Of a stretch of DNA of 64,000 bases, positions 49,136 to 64,000 are shown piece after piece. The DNA is taken from the NCBI GenBank assembly GCA_028285305.1, contig JANQPV010000056.1, positions 62,001-126,000 of the forward strand, read 5' to 3'. The position numbers and the translations under genes were made by a program. Origin of the DNA: Alphaproteobacteria bacterium. GTDB lineage: Bacteria > Pseudomonadota > Alphaproteobacteria > SMXP01. Below the pieces are notes generated by a model. The model was not told the origin of the DNA. It saw nothing but the letters and a program-made list of their open reading frames with translations, and did no database searches. The number at the start of each line of letters is the position of its first letter. The stretch's first letter is position 1.

Positions 49136-49223
49136 GGATGGGTGGCCGAGTGGTTGAAGGCACCGGTCTTGAAAACCGGCAAGGGGCAACTCTTCGTGGG
49201 TTCGAATCCCACCCCATCCGCCA
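49136..49223 (+). tRNA. tRNA-Ser (anticodon UGA)
   Basis: An 88-base class II tRNA with CCA encoded. The acceptor stem pairs GGATGGG (49136-49142) with CCCATCC (49213-49219), followed by G and CCA. The anticodon stem is CCGGT/ACCGG around loop CTTGAAA, so the anticodon is TGA. A long variable arm and a normal TPsiC arm with GTTCGAATCC follow, both expected for serine tRNA. It reads UCA and wobble codons. The integrase gene begins about 160 bases downstream on the same strand. Confidence 0.97.
49191..49223 (+). other. Probable attachment site (3' half of tRNA-Ser)
   Basis: The 3' portion of the tRNA gene, including the TPsiC arm and acceptor 3' strand, is the usual core used by tyrosine integrases of the P4 type. 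The integrase gene lies just downstream, so this would be attL, with the tRNA restored on integration. I see no second copy of this sequence inside the window; attR would lie beyond base 64000. Confidence 0.55.
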
Positions 49224-49384
49224 CCTCATGTTCCATCGTTTTCCACAGACCTCCGAATGCCCGCCCAAAGGGCTCAGAAAATTGGGAAAAACCGATTTGA
49301 TGTGTCCGTACTTTTCCACTTGCATCCATCACGAGCCACACTTACATCATGTGCAGAAGCATGGGCAGGATGTTGGAGGTGCGG

Positions 49385-50626
49385 ATGCCGAGACAACAAA
49401 ACAGGCTTACGGATCGAGCGATCAAGGCTATTCGTTCCCCTGGATATTACGCCGATGGCGGGAACCTGTACCTTCGACACAGCGAGTTCGATACTAAGAG
49501 CTGGGTGGTCCGGTTTGCGCTAAACAAGCGACGCCGTGAGATGGGCTTGGGGCCCTACCCCGACGTGACCCTAAAAGAAGCCCGCGAAGAAGCTTCACAA
49601 GCCAGAAAATTACTCCGTAAGGGAATTGACCCAATTGAAGAAAGGGTGCGTCTACGAGGTATTGCTGCTGCAAACGATGCCAAAGTCTTCACATTTCGCG
49701 AGGTTTCTGAGGAATACATCCGACTCAACGAACCTAGTTGGTCGAATAGAAAACACGCTGCGCAGTGGACAGCTACCTTAGAACGTTATGCGTTCCCCTT
49801 GATCGGTAACCTTCCGGTCGCCTTGATCGAAACACATCATGTGCAAAAAATCCTCTCGGAGATCTGGACCACGAAGAACGAAACGGCGAAGCGTGTTCGT
49901 GGTCGCATCGAAGCAGTTCTAGATGCTGCAAAAGTACAAGGGCTTAGAAGCGGGGAGAACCCGGCTCGTTGGAAAGGACACCTGGACAAAATATTTCCAA
50001 AGCCATCGAAGGTCCAGAAAGTAGAGCATCACGCTGCCTTACCTTATTTGGAAGTCGGCTCATTCGTTGAAGAGCTGCGATCGCGCGAAGGTGTATCTGC
50101 GCGCGCCTTCGAATTACTCATTCTAACGGCAACTCGCACGTCGGAGGTCATCGGTGCAAGGCACGACGAGTTTGATCTGACCTCCAAGACCTGGACTATT
50201 CCGGCGTTGCGGATGAAGTCACGTAAATCACATCGCGTGCCCTTGAGTGATCGCGCTGTTGAGATAATCGAGCAAATGCTTGCGTATGGTGAAGGCAAAT
50301 ATGTCTTTCCAGGACAAAGAGCCGGGAGTGGCTTGTCGAATATGGCCTTTCTAACCCTACTACGGCGAATTGGACGCACAGACATTACCGCTCATGGCTT
50401 TAGAAGCACATTCAGAGATTGGGCAGCCGAGCAGACTTCTTACCCTTCAGACCTCTTGGAGATGGCGTTGGCTCATGCCGTAGGGAACGATGTTGAGCGA
50501 GCATATCGGCGCACCGACCTTTTTGAGAAAAGACGTAAGCTGATGAATGAATGGGCAGAGTATTGTTGCAATTCAACTGCTTCGACAATAGCGAACGTAG
50601 TTTTCTTGCGGGAAACGGCACGATGA
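49385..50626 (+). CDS. Tyrosine recombinase, P4-type integrase
   Basis: The 413-residue integrase starts with a DUF4102-like arm-binding domain (RLTDRAIKAIRSPGYYADGG, then LGLGPYPDVTLKEAREEASQ, family hallmark). A core-binding domain follows at about 100-200, then a catalytic domain with Arg251 (TATRTSEV), His337/Arg340 (HGFRST), His364 (LAHAVGN) and nucleophile Tyr374 (ERAYRRTD). All catalytic residues are intact, so it should be active. The ATG at 49385 has GGAGGT 5 bases upstream; earlier in-frame ATGs at 49349, 49364 and 49370 are less likely. Confidence 0.96.
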   Translation: MPRQQNRLTDRAIKAIRSPGYYADGGNLYLRHSEFDTKSWVVRFALNKRRREMGLGPYPDVTLKEAREEASQARKLLRKGIDPIEERVRLRGIAAANDAKVFTFREVSEEYIRLNEPSWSNRKHAAQWTATLERYAFPLIGNLPVALIETHHVQKILSEIWTTKNETAKRVRGRIEAVLDAAKVQGLRSGENPARWKGHLDKIFPKPSKVQKVEHHAALPYLEVGSFVEELRSREGVSARAFELLILTATRTSEVIGARHDEFDLTSKTWTIPALRMKSRKSHRVPLSDRAVEIIEQMLAYGEGKYVFPGQRAGSGLSNMAFLTLLRRIGRTDITAHGFRSTFRDWAAEQTSYPSDLLEMALAHAVGNDVERAYRRTDLFEKRRKLMNEWAEYCCNSTASTIANVVFLRETAR

Positions 50627-51333: not shown

Positions 51334-51430
51334 CCCGCGGGACTGCAAATAACGATTTGCAGTCCGTGACTCGACCTCGAATGCGTGATTGATTTTCCTC
51401 AGTGGTCCACTCAGAACCGTTGAGGAACGA

Positions 51431-51781
51431 ATGTCAGCAACAGAATCTCTACCGTCGTCGAAAGACTTGTCCTGGTACCGGAAGTTTGGCGAAGAGGCGG
51501 AAAAGGCTTGCGCGATGATCGAAAAGATCAGAGCGCAGCAACAACTTCAGGAACTATTGATTGGCGTTGAAGAAATAAGAATGGCAAACGGTGGTGTATC
51601 ACCGCTGGTCGCCCTACCTGTAGTTTCTTACATTTCCGGACTCCAAAAGTCAGCCATCTACAAAAGAATTGCAGATGGGAACTTTCCTGCACCTGTGAAA
51701 ATTGGCAACGCCAATCGTTGGCCAATGGATGAAATCCTCGAGTGGCGAAATAACGTCGTTGCCGAGCGTCAAGCACCTTAA
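51431..51781 (+). CDS. AlpA-like helix-turn-helix regulator/excisionase
   Basis: A 116-residue protein with a C-terminal AlpA/MerR-like winged HTH: YISGLQKSAIYKRIADGNFP, then APVKIGNANRWPMDEILEWR, the classic AlpA motif. AlpA-type proteins activate integrase genes or act as excisionases in P4-like elements. The N-terminal 50 residues are helical and unassigned. The ATG at 51431 follows GAGGA. It lies between the integrase-linked gene and the replication genes, where such regulators are expected. Confidence 0.88.
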   Translation: MSATESLPSSKDLSWYRKFGEEAEKACAMIEKIRAQQQLQELLIGVEEIRMANGGVSPLVALPVVSYISGLQKSAIYKRIADGNFPAPVKIGNANRWPMDEILEWRNNVVAERQAP

Positions 51782-51851: not shown

Positions 51852-52319
51852 ATGCCTATATCACCATCAAACAGATATGACAATTCCGATCGCTCCCACA
51901 ATGACGCCGGTAGTCCGCCCTCAAACGACTGCAGGGAGCTGCTGGCTCAATTGATCGAAGACCCCGGCGCGAGCGATCGCCCCAAACCATTTGGACGCAG
52001 ACGAAGTAGTTATACCATTACCGCCAGGGTGCGAGGGAGGATGCGAAATCCGTTAGTCACCATTACGCGAAAGACCGCGAGGGTACTGGAGGCGCTGGAA
52101 AAAGCAGGTGATGCGGGACTCACCGCACTTGAGTTCTGCGGCACTCACTCATTTAAGATTGCCAATTACGTATTTCGCCTAAGGCATATGTACGGATTAA
52201 GCATAGAAATGATCCGGGAGAACCACGATGATGAGGATGGTGGAGGATGGCATGGCAGATACTTTTTAAGATCGGAAGTTGACATCCTCTCCCGTTCGAG
52301 AGGTGTCCGCCATGCCTAA
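51852..52319 (+). CDS. Small winged-helix-like island protein
   Basis: A 155-residue protein, start taken at the ATG 51852 (MPISPSNRYDN). The first half is polar and probably disordered. The C-terminal half (ITRKTARVLEALEKAGDAGL, then IANYVFRLRHMYGLSIEMI and HGRYFLRSEVDIL) reads like a winged-helix domain of the type found next to phage primases. It is likely DNA-binding. Its end overlaps the next gene by 8 bases. Precise role unknown. Confidence 0.7.
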   Translation: MPISPSNRYDNSDRSHNDAGSPPSNDCRELLAQLIEDPGASDRPKPFGRRRSSYTITARVRGRMRNPLVTITRKTARVLEALEKAGDAGLTALEFCGTHSFKIANYVFRLRHMYGLSIEMIRENHDDEDGGGWHGRYFLRSEVDILSRSRGVRHA

Positions 52320-53178
52320 CGAAGACGACATGCTGGTATCTGCTCTCAATTATGGGGAGCGCGGATGGTCAGTCTTTCCACTCTATGGGATTGCTGAAAG
52401 AGATGGTGTCCGGAGGTGTTCTTGTGGGCGATCGACATGCGACCACCAGGGAAAACATCCGGCCATTTCAGGGGGCTTTACTAGCGCGACAACTGATCAA
52501 AAAAAAATACGCAGATGGTTCTCACTACCAGGTCGAAACCTGGGCATAGCGACCGGCTGCGTATCGGGAATTTCGATCATTGATATCGATCCGAAAAATG
52601 GCGGCGACGAAAGTCTGGAAGGTTTGGAAAACGAGTTTGGTCTTCTACCAGAGACGCCGCGAGTGCTCACTGGCGGGGGCGGTGAGCATATCTTTTTTGC
52701 CTGCCCGACTAAGCCGCTTGCTTGCAGTGTCGGTAAGATAGCAATCGGTATCGATGTAAGATCCGACGGCGGTTATATTGTTGCCCCACCCTCCCTTCAC
52801 ATCGACGGTCCCGCCTATCGCTGGCTTGAAGGTTATCATCCCGACCTGTTGCCGTTTGCCGAAATGCCAGATTGGCTACTGAAACTAGCATCTTATGGCA
52901 AACTCGAACCTCGCAAGATCCAGCCAAATCGATTTGAGCCAACGAACTATATCAATGGAGACCGCATAAGAGAAGGCACCAGAAACAACACTCTAACCCG
53001 CCTGTCGGGCCACCTCATCGCGAATAGAATTGATCTTTTCACTGTCAGAGACCTCGTTTTCGCGGTTAATCAAGCTTACTGCGAGCCGCCATTGGAAAGA
53101 AGAGAAGTCGAAGGTTTGGTGTCGAGCATCGCGTGGCGCGAAGTTCAAAAACGGAAGGTTGGACATGACAATGGATGA
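52312..53178 (+). CDS. Bifunctional DNA primase/polymerase (prim-pol) domain protein
   Basis: An archaeo-eukaryotic-type primase/polymerase of 288 residues. An N-terminal Zn-like segment (CSCGRSTCDHQGKHP, about 36-50) precedes FTSATTDQKKIRRWF and LGIATGCVSGISIIDIDPKNGG. Asp91 and Asp93 of IDID are the metal-binding acids. GGGGEHIFFACP and the DVRSDGGYIVAPPSLH stretch are the remaining prim-pol motifs. A small C-terminal domain (about 220-288) follows. It lies just upstream of the SF3 helicase, so together they form an element's replication initiation unit. Confidence 0.92.
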   Translation: MPNEDDMLVSALNYGERGWSVFPLYGIAERDGVRRCSCGRSTCDHQGKHPAISGGFTSATTDQKKIRRWFSLPGRNLGIATGCVSGISIIDIDPKNGGDESLEGLENEFGLLPETPRVLTGGGGEHIFFACPTKPLACSVGKIAIGIDVRSDGGYIVAPPSLHIDGPAYRWLEGYHPDLLPFAEMPDWLLKLASYGKLEPRKIQPNRFEPTNYINGDRIREGTRNNTLTRLSGHLIANRIDLFTVRDLVFAVNQAYCEPPLERREVEGLVSSIAWREVQKRKVGHDNG

Positions 53179-54547
53179 CGGTGCTTTTTCCGAACTCGCC
53201 CGCGAACTCCGCGAAGTGAGGCCCCCGACTCGTAGCGAAGAAGAACTGGTAAGACGATTTGCCGCCGAAAATCACGGTCGCGTGATTTATGTAAATGAAT
53301 GGGGTAAATGGTTCATCTATGACGGTACTCGTTGGGTGGAAGACAAGACCGCTAGTGTAAAGTTCGCCATACGTTTGCTGTGCGCCGGGGAAGCGACAAA
53401 GGCGATGAGATCAACAAATAACGGAGCAGGCAGGTCTCTTGCTATGAGCAAGACCGTCAATGCGGTCGAGAATCTAGCAAAATGCGATCCGAAGTTCGCA
53501 ACCAAAGCTGACGATCTCGACCGTGATGATTGGGCACTCAACACGCCGGATGGAACCATAAATCTTCGGACCGGTAAAATAAAATCCCACGACCCCGCCG
53601 ACCTAATCACCAAAACTACGACGGTGGGACCGGAGGGCGGTTGTCCCGTCTGGCTTGAGTTCCTAGATTGCATCATGCGAGGCAACGTCGAGCTGATCCG
53701 GTATTTGCAGCGTGCTTGCGGCTACGCGTTGACCGGCTCAACCGACGAGCAATGCATTTTCTTTTTTTACGGCACGGGTGCGAACGGAAAGTCGACTTTC
53801 ACCCGAATCCTGCAACGTATCGCCGGCGATTACGCGCGCACCGCTCCGGCGGAAATGTTCACTATACGGAAGCACCAAGCTCATCTGACAGAGTTAGCCC
53901 GTTTGGCAGGTGCGCGAATAGTGGGCGCTAGCGAATTGAATAGTGGCGAGAAATGGAACGAACAGCGTATTAAATCGGTGACTGGAGGAGAACCAATCGT
54001 CGCAAACTTCATGCGGCAAGACCACTTTGAATATATTCCTAAGTTCAAACTCATCTTCAGTGCCAATGATAAACCAACCCTAAACGACTTTAATGAAGCC
54101 ATGAAAAGGCGCATACATCTTGTTCCGTTTGAAGTCACGATACCGGAAAACGAACGAGACCCTGCCTTGTTCGAAAAGCTCAAAGCCGAGGCCCCTGGTA
54201 TTTTGACATGGATGCTGGATGGGTTAGTTGATTGGCGGGAGAATGGATTGGCTGTTCCTGAGATCGTTGCTAATGCGACGGCGGACTACTTCGAAGAGGA
54301 AGACGTGGTCGGCAGATGGTTGAAAGCCAACTGCACCGAAGGTGATTTCGTGTATTGCAGCGAATTGATTAGTGATTTTCGGACATTCGAAGATTCGGCA
54401 ACGACCTGGGGCTGGTCGCAACGTCGGTTGACGAAAGAAATCGAAAGACGCGGGTACCAGAAACATAAGCGAAAAGACGGAGTTGGTTTTCTGGGGCTGC
54501 GTTTGGCCACCGCCGCGCGAAATCCTGTCAATGAGATGACGGAATGA
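53165..54547 (+). CDS. D5-N/SF3 helicase (phage/plasmid primase, P4 family)
   Basis: A 460-residue protein with a D5_N domain (residues about 20-190: RFAAENHGRVIYVNEWGKWF, then DDWALNTPDGTINLRTGKI) and an SF3 helicase: Walker A GTGANGKST at 203-211, then SELNSGEKWNEQRIKSVTGG (Walker B region and TGG) and FKLIFSANDKPTLNDFNEA (motif C, with KRRIHLVPF as arginine finger). A C-terminal winged helix follows. It overlaps the prim-pol gene by 14 bases. In phage P4 primase, helicase and origin binding are one protein; here they are split. Confidence 0.93.
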   Translation: MTMDDGAFSELARELREVRPPTRSEEELVRRFAAENHGRVIYVNEWGKWFIYDGTRWVEDKTASVKFAIRLLCAGEATKAMRSTNNGAGRSLAMSKTVNAVENLAKCDPKFATKADDLDRDDWALNTPDGTINLRTGKIKSHDPADLITKTTTVGPEGGCPVWLEFLDCIMRGNVELIRYLQRACGYALTGSTDEQCIFFFYGTGANGKSTFTRILQRIAGDYARTAPAEMFTIRKHQAHLTELARLAGARIVGASELNSGEKWNEQRIKSVTGGEPIVANFMRQDHFEYIPKFKLIFSANDKPTLNDFNEAMKRRIHLVPFEVTIPENERDPALFEKLKAEAPGILTWMLDGLVDWRENGLAVPEIVANATADYFEEEDVVGRWLKANCTEGDFVYCSELISDFRTFEDSATTWGWSQRRLTKEIERRGYQKHKRKDGVGFLGLRLATAARNPVNEMTE

Positions 54548-55116: not shown

Positions 55117-56853
55117 TCAAACATCTAATAGACTGGTGAACTCGTCGACCAACAACTTCTTCCTTTCCGTTATGAACTCCTCGAAGTTGTCTATAGACAG
55201 CTTTATACCTTGAGGTATGTAGTGTTTTCCCAGGTATTCAGATTTTCGCTGCGGGTCCGTGTACGTTTCTTCAAGCCACTGCTCAAACGGTTTGCCACTC
55301 TTTTCCTGATTTTCTATTCCCTCTAGGAGCTGAAGGTTCGCAAGCGAATTATATTGCTCAAAATAGTAATCGAATCTGGGCTCCGGAATGCCGTGCTTTC
55401 GAAGCTTCGCACGAGTAAAAAGTCGAACCGGAAAAATGTGGTCTTGGTGAAACTTGTTTTTGAAGTCCAGGGTCGGATAAAGTATGGCCAGAGACGAAAA
55501 CGTGTAGGGTTTTCCATACTGTAGGGTTGTGAGATTCTCGATTTCATCTGTTGTGAAGTCGATTGGTTTCGTGCTCCCCTTTTGCGCCTCAACAATCTGC
55601 TTCAACGGAAAGCCCGTCTGATAGTGATTGCGGATTTCTGTTCGCATGGGACGCAGTACGTTATCAGGCTGTCCACCGAATGTTCGCTTAAGGATAACCA
55701 TCAAGAGCCATTTGAAGATCTTCTCGCGATCCTCTCTGTGATTGCCAGCGGCAGCGAAGTTTGTGGGGCGCGCTTTCATCAGATAATACGCGATCGGGAT
55801 CAGCGCGTTTGCCGAAGTCAATGTGTCCCGGTGAAACCCAAAACTTGCCGCTAACACTACGGCCCCGCGAATGGCCTCAGAAATAGTGTCCCAATTCTCT
55901 TCTATCCGAAGCATGTTTTCGGTGTTAAAGTTGTCCACCTTGAACGCGATATCCGAAAAGTCGCTCAGCACAAGACATGATTTCAAAACAAAATCCTTGC
56001 TGAAATCAAAGCCGTTGCCAATTTGCTTGAGCGACTCCACGAATTCTATGATGACCTCCCTCGCGTCTCGTGTCTGCCACTGGGCGGTTGCGATCGAGAG
56101 AAGAAGATCTGAATGGCTGAGCTCAGTGCCACCGCTATTCACACGAATAAAAATATTCAGAACTTTGTCCAGAGACTCTCCTTCTTCAAGAAAGTAGTTA
56201 ATCGATCTGTCGTCGTGAATAACTTTCCGGAGTCTGAAGAGTGTTTTGCTAGCGAACCTTCCGCGCTCATTCGGTAGGTCGAGATCGAATACATAGTCAT
56301 TGATTTTGTCGTGTTCGTCCATCGACAAGATGTCGGCCACCGGGAACCAGCAGGCCGTGTCGCTTTGCTTTTCCGCCTCCGTTTCTGTGAGAAACCGAAA
56401 ATCGTAGTCGCGATCTTGCTCTGGGGGGCTGCCGAGTAAGTTTAAGTATAGCTTTCGTTTCGGAAACGCCGCGTCATTGTCCCACCTCTTTCGAGCTTCC
56501 TTGTACGTGTACGAACCATGTAGTCCAATGTACAATGACGTTAATCGCTGTTGACCGTCTAGCACGGCGGTGATTGCCTCGTTGCCTGATACGCTGGCCT
56601 TTTCGTTGTGTTTGTTGTCCCGTTGGTGGTAATCCCGCAGAAACTCATAGAACTGGAATTGGCCAACTTGTTCCTTTTCGACCCGCCAAAAAAGAAAAGA
56701 GCCGACCGGATACTCGCGCATAAGAGAATCAAAGAGAGCTTCAACTTGATCAGTATCCCAAACAAACTCGCGTTGGATAGCCGGTAGGAGATACTCCTTT
56801 CTGTGGATCCGTTCCACAACCTCTTTGATCGTTTTGGGGGTTTCGAATGCCAT
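55117..56853 (-). CDS. DUF262 family protein with HNH-like C-terminus (GmrSD-related), candidate defence nuclease
   Basis: The 578-residue protein begins with the DUF262 ParB-like domain: YLLPAIQREFVWDTDQVEAL, SLMREYPVGSFLFW and the hallmark DGQQRLTS at 99-106, which in GmrSD-type enzymes binds or hydrolyses nucleotides. Its C-terminus holds DHIFP at about 471-475 and NLQLLEGIENQEKSGKP near 506, a pattern like the HNH (DUF1524-type) nuclease with DHIFP and N...N. Such proteins are type IV-like modification-dependent nucleases or related effectors. It follows drmB after 96 bp on the same strand and takes the position where DrmC would be expected. Confidence 0.85.
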   Translation of the reverse strand: MAFETPKTIKEVVERIHRKEYLLPAIQREFVWDTDQVEALFDSLMREYPVGSFLFWRVEKEQVGQFQFYEFLRDYHQRDNKHNEKASVSGNEAITAVLDGQQRLTSLYIGLHGSYTYKEARKRWDNDAAFPKRKLYLNLLGSPPEQDRDYDFRFLTETEAEKQSDTACWFPVADILSMDEHDKINDYVFDLDLPNERGRFASKTLFRLRKVIHDDRSINYFLEEGESLDKVLNIFIRVNSGGTELSHSDLLLSIATAQWQTRDAREVIIEFVESLKQIGNGFDFSKDFVLKSCLVLSDFSDIAFKVDNFNTENMLRIEENWDTISEAIRGAVVLAASFGFHRDTLTSANALIPIAYYLMKARPTNFAAAGNHREDREKIFKWLLMVILKRTFGGQPDNVLRPMRTEIRNHYQTGFPLKQIVEAQKGSTKPIDFTTDEIENLTTLQYGKPYTFSSLAILYPTLDFKNKFHQDHIFPVRLFTRAKLRKHGIPEPRFDYYFEQYNSLANLQLLEGIENQEKSGKPFEQWLEETYTDPQRKSEYLGKHYIPQGIKLSIDNFEEFITERKKLLVDEFTSLLDV

Positions 56854-56949
56854 GTCTATTCCGATCGTTTCTGGGTCAGCAGCGTTCCGAGCCGAAGTTG
56901 GGTGCCGGGTTCCTATGGTCTTCGGCAGAGTGTCGTTTTGTTCTAACAG

Positions 56950-58776
56950 TCAGGTGAGCATCCGCAAAAGAGAGTTCCGATCAAGTAGCATATTCCGCTT
57001 TTCGCAGCTCGTTTCGGCCGTAAACAAACATCCGTGACATGCCGCGCCGAAGCCAGAGAAGTCGTCATTGGCGATCGGCGTTGGGGCCGTCGAGCATATG
57101 GGATCGTTCCCGCATATCGACATTCGCTCAAGCCCTCTCCCGAGCAGGCCTGTAAATCGAGACGCTTGTTGCAGCAATCCTCCAAGTGTGCCTTGAGAAC
57201 CGCTCCCCGCCGCATAAATCAGTATGCCAATTTTAGAAATGCGCGTCGAACCGGGACGCGACAGTGCATAAATGCGCTCGTTTAGCGAAGTTGCGGGATA
57301 TCCGGCTTCGAGAGCGATTTGTTCCAGCAACATGTGGGAGAGAGAATGAGCGAATAAGTAGGCATGTCCGGGATAAGGGCTACGGTTCGCCTGTTTCGAT
57401 TGCCAGATGTTATAGCGATTTTCTACTGTTCCAAATGCCTGTTGAATGGAGGTATCAGTCAGCTTTTCTTTGAACCAAGCGCTGTCGATTTGAACAAAGA
57501 AACCTTCTCCAAACTGTTCCATGGCCGGTAGCCAGCGTACCTTCTCGGCGAGCGGTTGGCCGCGCACTTCCAATGTAATTTCCTCGAAATTCTCATCGAA
57601 AGGAGATGGTGCCGGTTCGAGCCTCGTAAATCCGTAGAGGGCGGAAACAACGCACAACCTGCGAATTTCAACAATTCTTTTAATGCATTCGGCGTCGACG
57701 GAGCGATCATCCCACTCCTCCCGTTGCAAACGGCGCCCGGTTAGCCGAGCGTTCAGGGCTTCGCTGCCAATCTTTTCGGATGAAGTGAAGACCTCAAACT
57801 CCGCTTCTTTCGGATTGGGCGCACTATTGGCGTCTTGATCCTCAGCGCCCTCTCTGCGCCTTAGCTCCTGAATTGCTTCCCATATCTCATCTTCAGAATG
57901 CCCAGAGACGGCAGCTTTCACGTCGGCCTCGCTGAATTTCAGCGCTTGAGCTATTTCCTCTTTTGTCTCTATTTGTCGAAACACCGGGAACTGTGAAATC
58001 CTTTGCTGCAATTCATCTGGATCTTCGGGAAGCGCTATTAAACGCAGAATCTGACTATAGTAATTGTTGATGGCTCCGCGGGTCATCGGCTTGAGGGCTT
58101 CATCGCATTCTTGGGTACCCGCACGTCGAAGCCAAGGACGCCGCCCCTGACAAGGGCCAAGAACACGATCACTGGCATAGAGGTCTCTTAGCGGCCGCTT
58201 CGCGCCACATGCGCACACAACGTCGATATACTGCGGATCACTTCCGGAGCTGCGGTCCTCAATGAAGAGATCTTGCTGGCAGTTCTGTTCAGCGGCATTA
58301 ACGTGCACGAACCAACGCCAGTCGATATCTTGAATGTGCCCGTTCGCGCATGCGCCTACCCATCTTATGGGGGTTTTGGATTCGCGGCGCCGCTTTTGTT
58401 CGTTCGCGGTATATCTTTCCAGCTTTTGTCGGTTGCTTGTTCCCGCCCCTTCTTCGTTAAGGGGAGACGTGACCCATCGCGGGAATACCACCGCTGGAAC
58501 GGAAGGAGGATTCGGCCCTTGAAGAAGCTCCTCGTTCAACGGAGGCTCCCAGAGTTCCAGCTCAACATCATCTTCAAGCCAACTTTCTCCGCCTTCGGCG
58601 TTTCTCAACAGTTTGGTGAGGTAGAAAATGAGACGCCGCTCACGGATTTTTTTTGGCCGCCAGCTTGGCCAGTCACTCACGCCCCTGATTAGTACTGAAA
58701 CTTTGGGAAGGTCCACGATCGACCCGGGACCGAAAGTCTGAATGAGCTGAGACAGGCGGATTTCGTCTTTGGCCAT
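56950..58776 (-). CDS. drmB: DISARM protein DrmB (DUF1998)
   Basis: DrmB is a core DISARM protein with a DUF1998 domain. From the ATG at 58776 it has 608 residues starting MAKDEIRLSQLIQTFGPGSI. A cysteine pair in VVCACGAKRPLRDL could bind zinc. The DUF1998 end has YLFAHSLSHMLLEQIALEAG, GILIYAAGSGSQGTLGGL and the cysteine cluster CHGCLFTAETSCEKRN. It begins 5 bp after drmA, which precedes it in the operon. In studied DISARM systems DrmA and DrmB form a complex that restricts phage DNA. An in-frame GTG/ATG further upstream lies inside drmA. Confidence 0.93.
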   Translation of the reverse strand: MAKDEIRLSQLIQTFGPGSIVDLPKVSVLIRGVSDWPSWRPKKIRERRLIFYLTKLLRNAEGGESWLEDDVELELWEPPLNEELLQGPNPPSVPAVVFPRWVTSPLNEEGAGTSNRQKLERYTANEQKRRRESKTPIRWVGACANGHIQDIDWRWFVHVNAAEQNCQQDLFIEDRSSGSDPQYIDVVCACGAKRPLRDLYASDRVLGPCQGRRPWLRRAGTQECDEALKPMTRGAINNYYSQILRLIALPEDPDELQQRISQFPVFRQIETKEEIAQALKFSEADVKAAVSGHSEDEIWEAIQELRRREGAEDQDANSAPNPKEAEFEVFTSSEKIGSEALNARLTGRRLQREEWDDRSVDAECIKRIVEIRRLCVVSALYGFTRLEPAPSPFDENFEEITLEVRGQPLAEKVRWLPAMEQFGEGFFVQIDSAWFKEKLTDTSIQQAFGTVENRYNIWQSKQANRSPYPGHAYLFAHSLSHMLLEQIALEAGYPATSLNERIYALSRPGSTRISKIGILIYAAGSGSQGTLGGLLQQASRFTGLLGRGLERMSICGNDPICSTAPTPIANDDFSGFGAACHGCLFTAETSCEKRNMLLDRNSLLRMLT

Positions 58777-58781
58777 ACCTG

Positions 58782-61700
58782 CTACCTCGTCTCGAGATAT
58801 TGTTCTATTTCGAGGGCGACGCCCGGCTGTACATCGCGCATCGACCACCCTGCTTCGAAAAGCCGAAACTCAGGCCGCAGTCCAGATAGATCCTGCAAGG
58901 GGGTGTGCATTAGGCCGCCATCGTCCGCCTGATGGGTATCCCACGACAGTCCCTCGCCCTGACGATCTGCGAGAATGGCAAGCCAGGCATCAATGAGCCG
59001 ATCCGCTTCGTCAGCACATTCAAACCGCTTCACGATAAAGTCTCGCGCTTCTGTTACAGCGGGTTCATCACGCTCGACCAATTGCGGTCCTCGTGAAGGC
59101 GTGAACTGAGGATCCAAATGCCGCACTAAGCCAGCGAAGACAGCGCCCAGAGCCCGGTCCAACGCCCCCGAGGCTGCGGGAGTAACACTGGTCGCTTCGA
59201 CTGCGCGGTAGAATGCCTGATGATAGGTCTCGAAATCTTCGTAGTGTGCACGGTCCCGAGCGCGGTGCATGTTCAAAATGACCACCACAAGGCCGGGCTT
59301 CTCGTCCTCTCGGCCCACGCGACTGGTGGCTTGAATATATTCTGCAGCGCTCTTGGGCTGATTTTGCACAATCATGAGCCCGAGCCTCGAAATATCTAGG
59401 CCCACGGAAATCATGTTGGTGGCGAGTGCGACGTCTAGCGGCTTAAGGGGTTGGTCCGGGTCTTGATCAAAAAAGCTCTGGCCGAGACGCTTCTTCGTCT
59501 CCGCGACTTTGTCTGTCGTATTGCGGGAAGTGAGTTCCTCCGGAGCCCCAATCGTACGATTCGCAAAGGGGCTCATTTCTGATTCTTGAAGCAGCCGCAA
59601 GCGGCGAGATTGAAAGTTGGCGAGATTGCCAGCGACCTCGTCCTCAACTATTCGTCTTGTGGCGCCCAGTTCGCGAAGCGCGTTAAAGTAACAGAGAGCC
59701 GTCATATACGGATCTGCGGGGTTGCCTTTTTCATGATCGACGATTGCATTTTCATAGGCGTGTTGCGCAGCCGCGAGCAAAGGCGCAACAGTTCGCAGGA
59801 AGACTTTTCGAGGCCCGATACCCAGCGCACTCACGCCAAGATACAGGCGCTGCCGATCGGGGACTTCGGCGACTTTGGCAAAATAGCTGTTGCGGCGATC
59901 AATTCCCGGCGGCGGAAAGATTGATGTCTTGTCGCGATCGAAAAGTTTCTTGATCTGGTCGTCAGCACGTCGAACGGTTGCAGTGGAGGCGACAATTTTT
60001 GGTCCGCGCAGCTTGCCATTTATGTTCCTGCTGGCGAGACGGTCTAATGCTGCTTCATAGAGACCGGCGATGGTCCCGAGCGGGCCTGAAATGAGGTGAA
60101 GTTCATCCTGAATGACAAGATCCGGTGGGGGCAGACATTGTCGTTGTGGATCGAGCAACGTGCCGATTCCGGGCGCATCGGCACCGAGAAACATCAACTG
60201 TTGTGTATTGTTTGCATTTTCGATGCGATCCACATGATTGAAAAAGCGACCGATTTCTCCTCGTCTTGGAATCGCTGCAAATTTATCCGCTGTGGCGACA
60301 ATAAAGGCGGGGAGGCGGTTATAGATCTCTTCATCTACGGCGAGCACCGGCAGGCCCCCTTTTGCCGCACTGAAATCACAATCAAGATTGTCGCAATTGA
60401 TCAGCATACGTAGACCGGTAATACGATAGGTGTCGCGATCAAATGGTGTACCGCACCATGGACACTCCGTTATGGGAGCAGGAGATGGCCCGCGCTTTTG
60501 CCGATACCACTCTACCTTCCCATAAGCATTGCGCGGGGGTGAATCATCCTGTTGGCCTCGCCCGCCAATTTTATTGGGCGTGGCGCCTGATCCCACCCAG
60601 AGGCCGATTTCGATGGGCGCCTGACCGAGAAGAGGCTGACCGTTTGCCTTCTTCCAGTCATCGGATCGTCGCAGCAACTCGAGAGCACAGATCATCGCCG
60701 CCGCGCGTCCCAATTGGTCGAGTGTGAGCAGTCGCAGGGTGTAGCGCATGATAACGCTGACGCCGCTGCCCAGCCAATCGGGATGACTCATCCGGCGAAG
60801 TGCGATCTGATAAGCGGCAAGTCCCAAATAGGCTTCGGTCTTACCACCGCCCGTTGGGAAAAACAGAAGATCCACGATTTCCCGGTCTTCGCTCAAATTG
60901 TTTGAAAGCCCCGGCAAATTAAGAAGGACGAAGGCCAGCTGAAACGGACGCCAGCTTGGATCGGGAATTTTCCTTGAGTTTTCAAGGTAGGACTTGATGG
61001 CTAGGTTCATTGCCTTGAAGGCGAGCCGCGCATCATGACTGGTCTTTAAAAGATCAACGCCAGCCGCCATGCGTTGGTACGCGGATCGTTGGTTGGTCAC
61101 CAATGTCTCCGCAATATCACGCCGGCGTTCTTCTGGAATATTGGCCACTTCGGCTGCCTGTTTTTCGATGAAGTCACTAAGATAAGCGGCCGGAAATTTT
61201 TCGAGAGTTTCAGCGAGACGTTCCGGCGACGTGCTGAGGTCCGCCAGACTGCCCATGTTGAACTCCGTGATGTCGTTGAGCGCCTTGTTCTGGTCAACTT
61301 TTTCTACATGTGCAGCGGGTAAATGGTCACTCCACACACGACCGGCCCGATTCCCATTAACCTTGTCATGGCCGGTACCAACATTCCGCCCCCCAACGAA
61401 GCGCAATATGTCGTTGTAGTGCAAGTCGTGCAGCCGCAGATCGAAATCTTCCGCCGCATACCCACTCATATCAGGATTGCCGATGAATCCTTTCGGCGTG
61501 GTAAGCGTCAGACCCACCTGAAAGATGTTGGATACATCTTTGAACCGGTTGGCGGCAGTTCGCTTGTTCACCACAAAGACGGTTACACTAATGCCCTCCG
61601 GCCATTCAGTGCGAGGAAGAGGACGCGGGAGCGGACATTTCTGCGCGATGATGTGCAGCACAATGTCCCCTCCGGGAAGGCTGGGGGCGGCTGAGTCCGC

Positions 61701-62267
61701 TAACAAGATCTCATACCCGCCGGGAGTCTCGAGGGCTCGCTTGATGTCTTTGGCTTCAATCGTTTGGGATATTGTTCGCGGATCTCGTCGCCAGCCTATT
61801 TCATCCGCGACTGATTTGGGAGCGCCCCGCAGGATATCCTCAGAGATGGGCGGTTCCGGAATGTAATTGGCGAAGCGAACCGTCGCGTCAATGGAGGCGC
61901 AGTCCGGATCGACAAAGACCGTGAGGCCGAGACTGGATGGTTGTAGGCGCCTTCGTTGAACATGCTCCCGGCCGCCGTCTTCATCGTCTTCATCCGGCGC
62001 ATTTGCATCGTCTTGCTCTTCTCCGATCAAGTCCCTTTCCAGTTGCTGTTCATCTGCAGGGCTTGGCATTTCCGTTTCATGGGCCGGAACGAGGAAGCCG
62101 AATAAATAAAAGGAAGAAGGGCGAATGCCGGGGCGCAAAGTCTCTGTATTCGCCATATGGGCTTCACCGGCGAAGTGCCGCGTGTCCGGACCAAAAATGT
62201 CTCCGCGAAGAGCAGATAGAAGATGGTCGCGCACCTCTGTTGATGTTTCGAACTCTGTCTCGCTCAT
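58782..62267 (-). CDS. drmA: DISARM helicase DrmA
   Basis: An 1161-residue helicase of the DISARM core. The SF2-like motor has Walker A PTGGGKT at 471-477, a cysteine-rich insert (CPWCG at 602-606 and CDNLDC at 625-630, zinc-like), Walker B-type DELH at 721-724 (DLVIQDELHLISGPLG), STAT at 761-764 as motif III, and motif V/VI stretches ATNMISVGLDISRLG and QATSRVGRE near 980-1020. The N-terminal 450 residues are DrmA-specific and acidic. The ATG overlaps the drmMI stop as ATGA. It threads and loads phage DNA in the DISARM model. Confidence 0.95.
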   Translation of the reverse strand: MSETEFETSTEVRDHLLSALRGDIFGPDTRHFAGEAHMANTETLRPGIRPSSFYLFGFLVPAHETEMPSPADEQQLERDLIGEEQDDANAPDEDDEDGGREHVQRRRLQPSSLGLTVFVDPDCASIDATVRFANYIPEPPISEDILRGAPKSVADEIGWRRDPRTISQTIEAKDIKRALETPGGYEILLADSAAPSLPGGDIVLHIIAQKCPLPRPLPRTEWPEGISVTVFVVNKRTAANRFKDVSNIFQVGLTLTTPKGFIGNPDMSGYAAEDFDLRLHDLHYNDILRFVGGRNVGTGHDKVNGNRAGRVWSDHLPAAHVEKVDQNKALNDITEFNMGSLADLSTSPERLAETLEKFPAAYLSDFIEKQAAEVANIPEERRRDIAETLVTNQRSAYQRMAAGVDLLKTSHDARLAFKAMNLAIKSYLENSRKIPDPSWRPFQLAFVLLNLPGLSNNLSEDREIVDLLFFPTGGGKTEAYLGLAAYQIALRRMSHPDWLGSGVSVIMRYTLRLLTLDQLGRAAAMICALELLRRSDDWKKANGQPLLGQAPIEIGLWVGSGATPNKIGGRGQQDDSPPRNAYGKVEWYRQKRGPSPAPITECPWCGTPFDRDTYRITGLRMLINCDNLDCDFSAAKGGLPVLAVDEEIYNRLPAFIVATADKFAAIPRRGEIGRFFNHVDRIENANNTQQLMFLGADAPGIGTLLDPQRQCLPPPDLVIQDELHLISGPLGTIAGLYEAALDRLASRNINGKLRGPKIVASTATVRRADDQIKKLFDRDKTSIFPPPGIDRRNSYFAKVAEVPDRQRLYLGVSALGIGPRKVFLRTVAPLLAAAQHAYENAIVDHEKGNPADPYMTALCYFNALRELGATRRIVEDEVAGNLANFQSRRLRLLQESEMSPFANRTIGAPEELTSRNTTDKVAETKKRLGQSFFDQDPDQPLKPLDVALATNMISVGLDISRLGLMIVQNQPKSAAEYIQATSRVGREDEKPGLVVVILNMHRARDRAHYEDFETYHQAFYRAVEATSVTPAASGALDRALGAVFAGLVRHLDPQFTPSRGPQLVERDEPAVTEARDFIVKRFECADEADRLIDAWLAILADRQGEGLSWDTHQADDGGLMHTPLQDLSGLRPEFRLFEAGWSMRDVQPGVALEIEQYLETR

Positions 62268-64000
62268 AGGAGGCTGCCCTGTTTCTCTGTTTGTCTTTTC
62301 TGTTGGCGAGTGGCCTTTTTCTTCTTGTCACCCTTACTCATCAACGCCTCGGCGGCCGCGCGCTCCTTATTCAGCGTAAGCAATCTCGCGATCACCTTGT
62401 CGCGAAACGATGCCGGCCAGAACAAGCGGTTTTGGTATGCGAATTCCGGCTCTTCTTCCTCGGTTAGAAACCGCGGTGCAAACTCTCCACCCCTCTCGCA
62501 ACGATCAGCCAGATCGTCCCAGCCATAGGCCCGCAGAACTGCATCATCCATTTCAGCATGAAGTTGCCTGAGACTCTGGATATCTTCATCCGCCTCAAGA
62601 GGATTATGAAACCGGTTGTACGTTTTGGTGAGGCCTTCATCGCGGATTTTCATCATCGCCGCGCGATGAGTGAAATAGCGTTGGGTGGTAGTTGTAACTA
62701 ACGTATCTTCTCGAAAACTTTGGGCCAGAGGAAAAGTATCGAAACAATCTTCCACGTTATACCGACCATCGTCTTTCATTGTCGCACCCATCGTTCGAGC
62801 CCAGACTTCGTGAGTACTCGAGCAGAGAACTCCAGTGATACAGTGTCCCTCTTCCGCCCACACAACCAAAGTTTGATCAAGAACAGCCGCATTTTCCAAA
62901 CATGTGAAAGTTGGAAAATTTGTACTTGTAAGTGACCTAACGGTAATGCGATTCTTTCCCAAAATTCTCTCGTACAAAGCAGGACGATTTCTCAAATACC
63001 GCCACCATATTTGTTGACCTATTTTGTCCTTTTGCCTTTTGCGTTCGGGCTTCACCAGTCTATCAACAATCTCAAGCAGGTCAGGCCAATCCGCTGCGAC
63101 CGGAGAATTATAATCGCCAGGAACGATTCCCTCACGAAGCATGTCTTTTCTCTGCTGTTCGGTTGTTTCACTCCACAAAATGAGATCATGGTCTCGTTTG
63201 AGTGGAAAGTTCTCAAAGTCGATGACGAAGCGATGATGCCGGTGTTCCGGGTCTGTATTGACTTCCTCTCCTCCCAGATAAGGCTTGATGCGTTCAGCGT
63301 TGCGAGGGTCCCTGTCGATAAGATCGTACATTTTGGCGAGAGGTTCACATTTACCTTTAGCTGCATTTACGTCATCAAATGTGAAGCCCATACCTAGTAC
63401 GTAGGAACCGATGAATGCGATACCGGCGTTCTCTTCGAGTACGGATGGTGTTTCATCTTGTCCGCCCTCCCTCAGAAACGCAGAGATGCGACTAACGGGC
63501 CTCGAATCCAGTTCCGGGTTTGGCCAGTCCTGTTTGCCTTTGCCGACGTGGACCGTGGACACAACGACCGCTGCTGCACCTGGCCATTTCACGCGTCGCT
63601 CGGCCCGGTAAATGGTTCCGCTTGCGTCCACTAGCAGGTGTCGTAGTCCACTTTCTCTTGTGTCGCCTTGCCCGATCGTATTCGTCGCTATGAGACCAAA
63701 TGTGCCGCCTTCACGAATCAGGTTGTAGGCGCGCCGGAAAAAGTGAGAGACTAAATCTGCATTGCCGTGCGACCCGGGACTGATGATTTTGAGCCAGTCG
63801 GGGTAATAATCGCGCTGTCCATTTGCGATGGTATTCTTGCCAGCAAATGGTGGATTGCCGACGATGGCATCGAAACCGGGTGCGGATCCGGCGAAGACCT
63901 CCGGAAACTCGATCTCCCAATGAAAAGGTCGAATGGGATGGTCTCCGTACTTTAGACTGTCTGCATACTGCTTTGCACTGGTCCAGCCATCATCGCCCCC
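62264..64000 (-). CDS. drmMI: DISARM adenine methyltransferase DrmMI (N-terminus beyond window)
   Basis: An Eco57I-like class I DNA adenine methylase. Reading in from the window edge, the frame is open for about 579 codons and contains VGNPPFAGKNT, the NPPF catalytic motif IV, near codon 46. The C-terminal half (target-recognition region) has LILWSETTEQQRKDMLR, WWRYLRNRPALYERIL and VEDCFDTFPLAQSFRE, patterns of DrmMI/Eco57I methylases. In the window the N-terminal SAM-binding motif I is cut off. DrmMI marks host DNA so that DISARM spares it. The Lys-rich tail is KGDKKKKATRQQKRQTEK. Confidence 0.9.
   Translation of the reverse strand, partial: GGDDGWTSAKQYADSLKYGDHPIRPFHWEIEFPEVFAGSAPGFDAIVGNPPFAGKNTIANGQRDYYPDWLKIISPGSHGNADLVSHFFRRAYNLIREGGTFGLIATNTIGQGDTRESGLRHLLVDASGTIYRAERRVKWPGAAAVVVSTVHVGKGKQDWPNPELDSRPVSRISAFLREGGQDETPSVLEENAGIAFIGSYVLGMGFTFDDVNAAKGKCEPLAKMYDLIDRDPRNAERIKPYLGGEEVNTDPEHRHHRFVIDFENFPLKRDHDLILWSETTEQQRKDMLREGIVPGDYNSPVAADWPDLLEIVDRLVKPERKRQKDKIGQQIWWRYLRNRPALYERILGKNRITVRSLTSTNFPTFTCLENAAVLDQTLVVWAEEGHCITGVLCSSTHEVWARTMGATMKDDGRYNVEDCFDTFPLAQSFREDTLVTTTTQRYFTHRAAMMKIRDEGLTKTYNRFHNPLEADEDIQSLRQLHAEMDDAVLRAYGWDDLADRCERGGEFAPRFLTEEEEPEFAYQNRLFWPASFRDKVIARLLTLNKERAAAEALMSKGDKKKKATRQQKRQTEKQGSLL

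Follow-up and report, generated by a model that had tools for sequence, protein, structure and literature searches.

A class 1 DISARM operon without drmC and its downstream BrxU-type DUF262 gene in an alphaproteobacterium

Class 1 DISARM has the gene order drmD-drmMI-drmA-drmB-drmC. Its last product, DrmC, is dispensable and often missing, and Bravo et al. proposed that DrmAB may recruit alternative nucleases (PMC9142583); the published statements on DrmC used in this study rest on that paper and on PMC12458937. A second system of relevance is BrxU (PDB 7p9k, 7p9m), the single-chain type IV enzyme of DUF262-DUF1524 architecture encoded in the BREX island of Escherichia fergusonii pEFER. BrxU cuts DNA carrying 5mC, 5hmC or glucosylated 5hmC and spares plain dC DNA, and experiments showed that BREX and BrxU provide complementary protection (PMC8565348). 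In the same work, phage resistance was lost in the single mutants S42A/D, Q101A, R102A, D474A and H475A, and retained in Q35A, R38A and N485A (PMC8565348). Also of relevance is the protein family HEC-05 (Hma-embedded candidate 05), which, as cited in PMC12988326, was derived through guilt-by-embedding by Payne et al. 2024. Our search of the full-text literature found no description of DISARM accompanied by a DUF262 protein or BrxU; the preprint defining HEC-05 lay outside the scope of this search.

The analyzed window is a stretch of 64,000 nucleotides (C75:62001-126000) from a 5.4-Mb alphaproteobacterial genome assembled in 77 contigs. The first-pass annotation had placed four ORFs of a class 1 DISARM locus on its minus strand, and the ORF list, PADLOC and Pfam agree on all four. 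The gene drmMI begins beyond the window; its 3′ part (62264..64000, minus strand; PADLOC DrmMI, 4.5e-157) encodes an adenine methyltransferase with the NPPF motif and an Eco57I/MmeI domain (Pfam), and the whole gene, read further along the contig, specifies 1322 aa (L002:4264-8232, minus strand; PADLOC DrmMI, E=0). From the profile and the motif, DrmMI is predicted to methylate adenine. It is followed by drmA (58782..62267, minus strand), encoding an SF2 helicase of the YprA family (1161 aa; PADLOC DrmA, 9.8e-228, and alignment), and by drmB (56950..58776, minus strand), encoding a DUF1998/MZB protein (PADLOC DrmB, 1.7e-77; Pfam MZB). The listed start of drmB is a GTG at 58848 (632 aa); on inspection an ATG at 58776, just past the drmA stop codon, appeared likelier (608 aa). 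The fourth gene (55117..56853, minus strand) encodes a DUF262 protein of 578 aa (PADLOC HEC-05, 3.1e-236; Pfam GmrSD_N; PDB 7p9k).

Reading the contig past position 64000 revealed drmD, the gene that had been expected there, outside the window and directly upstream of drmMI, which it overlaps by 4 bp (L002:8229-11231, minus strand; 1000 aa, SNF2-like helicase; PADLOC DrmD, 7.2e-239). The transcribed order is therefore drmD-drmMI-drmA-drmB-DUF262. In PADLOC the proteins of the operon match their families over the full length, at a strength that chance does not explain, and the profiles identify adjacent drmA and drmB, DrmMI, and DrmD upstream, as in class 1. The proposed assignment thus holds: the locus is an ordinary class 1 DISARM of the alphaproteobacterial kind. 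The four drm genes are of full length and share the order and strand of the described system, from which the locus differs in the lack of drmC (as do all scorable members of its own clade) and in the added BrxU homologue.

The product of the fifth gene had been described as GmrSD-like, probably a modification-sensing nuclease that could add an effector, and its homology to BrxU bears this out. GmrSD_N matches the protein with 3.6e-33 in Pfam, which gave no separate match for the C-terminal domain; the PADLOC HEC-05 model (3.1e-236) spans the whole protein, and the sole structure family matched in the PDB was BrxU (7p9k/7p9m, E=4e-147, residues 5-571). The best-known relative, in pEFER, lies between brxC and pglX and is the published BrxU (PMC8565348), with which the protein shares 42% identity over its full length. 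Like the NPPF motif of DrmMI, the DGQQR and DHIFP motifs were both confirmed. Alignment to BrxU located the conserved serine of the (R)LFDS motif at S43, DGQQR at residues 99-103 and DHIFP (DHIYP-type, DUF1524 HNH) at residues 471-475, with D471/H472 opposite D474/H475 of BrxU. All five essential BrxU residues (S42, Q101, R102, D474 and H475) are conserved, as S43, Q102, R103, D471 and H472, and R38 and N485, which tolerate substitution in BrxU, are not, so that the protein is likely to be an active NTP-dependent nuclease. Both proteins have the single-chain DUF262-DUF1524 type IV architecture and are encoded in or beside a methylation-based defence operon, with the same division of labour expected between unmodified and modified phages. 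They differ in that the pEFER gene is inserted within BREX, whereas the present one stands at the 3′ end of a DISARM operon and its substrates are predicted. The protein is also a member of HEC-05, a family that, as far as it is described in the citing paper, was defined by genes embedded in other defence systems; its host system was Hma, and here it is DISARM.

By analogy with BrxU the enzyme would recognize cytosine-modified DNA. No C5-cytosine methylase was detected in the window's genome, and a nuclease cutting 5mC-containing DNA would therefore spare the DNA of its own host. In contrast, C5-cytosine methylases are encoded in all six carrier genomes of close DUF262 homologues (6/6), and hence the substrate range may differ somewhat from that of pEFER BrxU. 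Incompatibility with C5-methylases as a rule of the family was rejected, since the window's genome fits it and the other carriers do not.

We consider it quite probable that the locus consists of a drmC-less class 1 DISARM core and an acquired downstream BrxU-type gene, the latter being an independent plug-in, and that the whole probably resides on a tRNA-Ser element. In such an arrangement DrmMI would mark host DNA with N6-methyladenine, and DrmAB and DrmD would load on and block DNA that does not carry this mark. Phages escaping by cytosine modification (5mC, 5hmC or glucosyl-5hmC) would be cut by the DUF262 enzyme, which would bind and hydrolyse NTP through S43 and DGQQR and cleave with its DHIFP HNH domain. 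As in BREX with BrxU, the two would form complementary layers that need no physical contact, and their protection would be additive. All parts of the system have been described before, the lack of drmC has an older cause, and the pairing is a sensible one; it would extend the BREX-BrxU logic of unmodified versus modified phages to DISARM, in a host lacking C5-cytosine methylases.

The setting of the operon is that of a probable integrative element. Its left part comprises (i) a tRNA-Ser(TGA) gene, the probable integration site (49136..49223, plus strand), (ii) a gene for a tyrosine integrase with Arm-DNA-bind_3, Phage_int_M and Phage_integrase domains (49349..50626, plus strand), (iii) an AlpA-like regulator recognized by eye (51389-51781), and (iv) a Prim-Pol/PriCT primase and a D5_N/DUF5906 helicase (52279..54547, plus strand). 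The 3′-terminal 14 bases of the tRNA gene (49210-49223) recur at L002:12864 (window-equivalent 70864), a candidate right attachment site that would give an element of approx. 21.7 kb with the entire operon inside it. This right end is tentative, given an unrelated, chance-like 15-bp match nearby. To the right of the candidate end (L002:13111-17535) we observed genes whose products are a protein of 507 aa, a Trypsin_2 protein hit by a PADLOC 'nacht' model, and a patatin-like phospholipase that models of CBASS effectors recognize; this region is possibly another defence locus.

The first-pass annotation had also raised the possibility of a general DISARM variant defined by the DUF262 gene. DUF262 genes do recur with DISARM, and this part of the proposal stands; the generality does not, as they occur in a minority of loci, in varied positions and orientations, and belong to different DUF262 lineages. 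HEC-05-type genes were found near six DISARM loci including the window. In L062, the only other case with an alphaproteobacterial DISARM neighbour, the gene (41% identity) directly follows drmB on the opposite strand; in L128 a broken copy lies between drmMI and drmA; in L097 and L075 it follows drmC; and in L110 it is upstream. Matches of our local HEC-05 profile in L093 and L098 turned out to be Orf5/HEC-06-type DUF262 proteins rather than BrxU and were left uncounted. At the strict cut-off, three strong HEC-05-like matches near DISARM were observed versus 0.02 expected from the genome background, an excess that does not single out DISARM, since any defence-island gene would show it.

Within the window's own DISARM clade, a DUF262 gene adjoins drmB in 2 of the 25 scorable loci (the window and L062), in opposite orientations. 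The closest DUF262 relatives (L154, 58%; a Kurthia plasmid, where the gene is solo, 55%; L155, 49%) do not adjoin DISARM at all. In the DUF262 tree the window's protein pairs with that of L154 (support 94/93) and the DISARM-linked members do not group together. Nor are the two systems co-inherited: among 399 genomes of the phylum, 7 contained the DUF262 gene and 11 DrmA, and both were present only in the window's genome. Relatives of the gene were detected, in addition, on 370 plasmids and in 4 phages. A conserved core DISARM component was rejected on the clade count and the tree. The varied placement near DISARM and the non-DISARM settings of the nearest relatives indicate an independently acquired plug-in, and the gene looks like shared mobile defence cargo, not a new type of DISARM. 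The neighbourhood in L154 is an observation in its own right: the DUF262 gene (L154:9026-10771) is located directly downstream of a type IIG-like methylase gene and the gene of a helicase of PLD+SNF2 type (C3a139/HKD+Snf2-like; the two at L154:11344-18106). These two genes apparently form a modification system, with which the BrxU-type enzyme is paired.

The gene could also be a chance neighbour, i.e. a solo BrxU-type gene with its own regulation that is functionally unrelated to the adjacent DISARM. In unbiased genome samples the DUF262 gene was indeed solo in most cases (one copy, in L158, lay within BREX and another, in L154, next to SNF2/methylase genes), and its G+C content differs slightly from that of the drm genes (47.8% versus 52.5-55.2%). 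However, at third codon positions its G+C content is the same as in the drm genes, and recurrence beside DISARM, BREX, SIR2 and SNF2/methylase loci argues for selected co-carriage. The sequence between drmB and the DUF262 gene (56854..56949, minus strand; 96 bp) bears on the same question, since independent transcription from a promoter in this gap had been named as a possible refutation. No promoter-like or minus-strand terminator-like signal above chance was detected there (the few signals did not exceed the shuffled expectation), which is compatible with co-transcription, and the two co-directional genes may be co-transcribed. Mere chance adjacency therefore appears unlikely, and the co-directional arrangement, the 96-bp gap and the undetected promoter or terminator make a tighter functional tie possible.

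Such a tie could take the form of a DISARM nuclease effector, if DrmAB recruits the DUF262/HNH protein instead of DrmC. The gene occupies the usual drmC slot after drmB, on the same strand and across a short gap, and the recruitment of alternative nucleases by DrmAB has been proposed (PMC9142583). Moreover, drmC is indeed missing. A DrmC profile built from 23 PLD proteins encoded directly 3′ of drmB in related loci gave no match in the window's genome and recovered DrmC in all four control genomes (4/4), which rules out a drmC hidden elsewhere in the genome; a relaxed search of the locus yielded no DrmC or HKD protein either. Thus a homologue elsewhere, the finding that could have overturned the reading, was encountered neither in the locus nor in the genome. 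A PLD-like protein (HPK...GSGN) encoded between drmMI and drmA in the DISARM of Methylocystis, a member of the window's clade (L139:6728-7861), did not match the DrmC profile and is possibly an unrelated PLD nuclease within a DISARM operon.

The absence of drmC is, however, a rule of the clade. A genome scan yielded 80 DISARM loci, and in the DrmA tree (FastTree) the window's own alphaproteobacterial clade received a support of 100; the placement of two long rows outside this clade (L021 and L022) is unsure. drmC was absent in all 25 scorable loci of the clade, nearly all of which also lack a DUF262 gene. By contrast, DrmC follows drmB in 36 of the 43 scorable loci of the sister group, and most non-alphaproteobacterial loci have it. 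The nearest DrmA found (61-62%) is that of Sulfitobacter sp. SK025 plasmid NZ_CP025812, whose operon shares drmD-drmMI-drmA-drmB; after its drmB there are approx. 860 bp in which no gene is annotated, and beyond them lies an IS66 element, with neither drmC nor DUF262. The same core, again with neither gene, is present on Acidibrevibacterium, Methylocystis, Sphingomonas, Paracoccus and Sinorhizobium plasmids. A comparison of the nearest taxa was uninformative, as the window's order is represented by only 5 genomes in the collection.

Since the clade and its relatives lack drmC irrespective of DUF262, the absence of drmC is older than the arrival of the DUF262 gene and independent of it. Furthermore, L075, L097 and L128 contain both drmC and a HEC-05-like gene, and the DISARM-linked DUF262 proteins come from different lineages. 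Together with the dispensability of DrmC (PMC9142583), this makes replacement of DrmC by the DUF262 protein, as originally suggested, very unlikely. That a whole alphaproteobacterial class 1 DISARM clade dispenses with drmC means that the nuclease requirement of DISARM, if there is one, can be tested directly.

A variant of the effector idea is that the BrxU homologue is coupled, physically or in function, to DrmAB as its nuclease and as one occupant of an exchangeable slot after drmB, taken elsewhere by SIR2- or Argonaute-type proteins. It would mean that the DISARM effector slot is filled differently in different bacteria, and we judge it highly improbable. As regards the slot itself, the post-drmB position of the clade holds varied defence genes, with SIR2-HerA in L067, a SIR2-APAZ-type Argonaute-associated protein in L125 and a LmuB-like protein in L055.

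Finally, although the DUF262 proteins include such different types as SspE and the Dnd-linked Orf5, and Orf5-type ones occur near other DISARM loci, an enzyme of another type, for instance a phosphorothioate sensor like SspE that responds to a mark the operon itself makes, can practically be discarded given the full-length HEC-05/BrxU match (3e-236 versus 5e-05 for SspE in PADLOC), a PDB search that returned BrxU only, and the failure to see dnd or ssp genes among the ORFs read at the locus.

Other genes are embedded in the DISARM operons of the clade. Far commoner than the DUF262 gene in alphaproteobacterial class 1 DISARM is a pair located between drmMI and drmA, which encodes an XRE/Peptidase_M78 regulator (approx. 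370 aa, RmrA/CapP-like) and a protein of 167-172 aa. The pair is carried by L055, L056, L057, L058, L062, L064, L138, L139, L165 and L166, and in part by L107 and L179. The smaller protein starts with '..PVLVDTNVILE..' and is PIN-like by eye, with no Pfam or PADLOC match; the pair may constitute a regulator/toxin module of the clade. Type I-E cas genes are annotated around the Sphingomonas DISARM in L140, and L054 and L060 look similar. The clade operons thus contain two sites that accumulate other defence genes, one between drmMI and drmA and the other after drmB.
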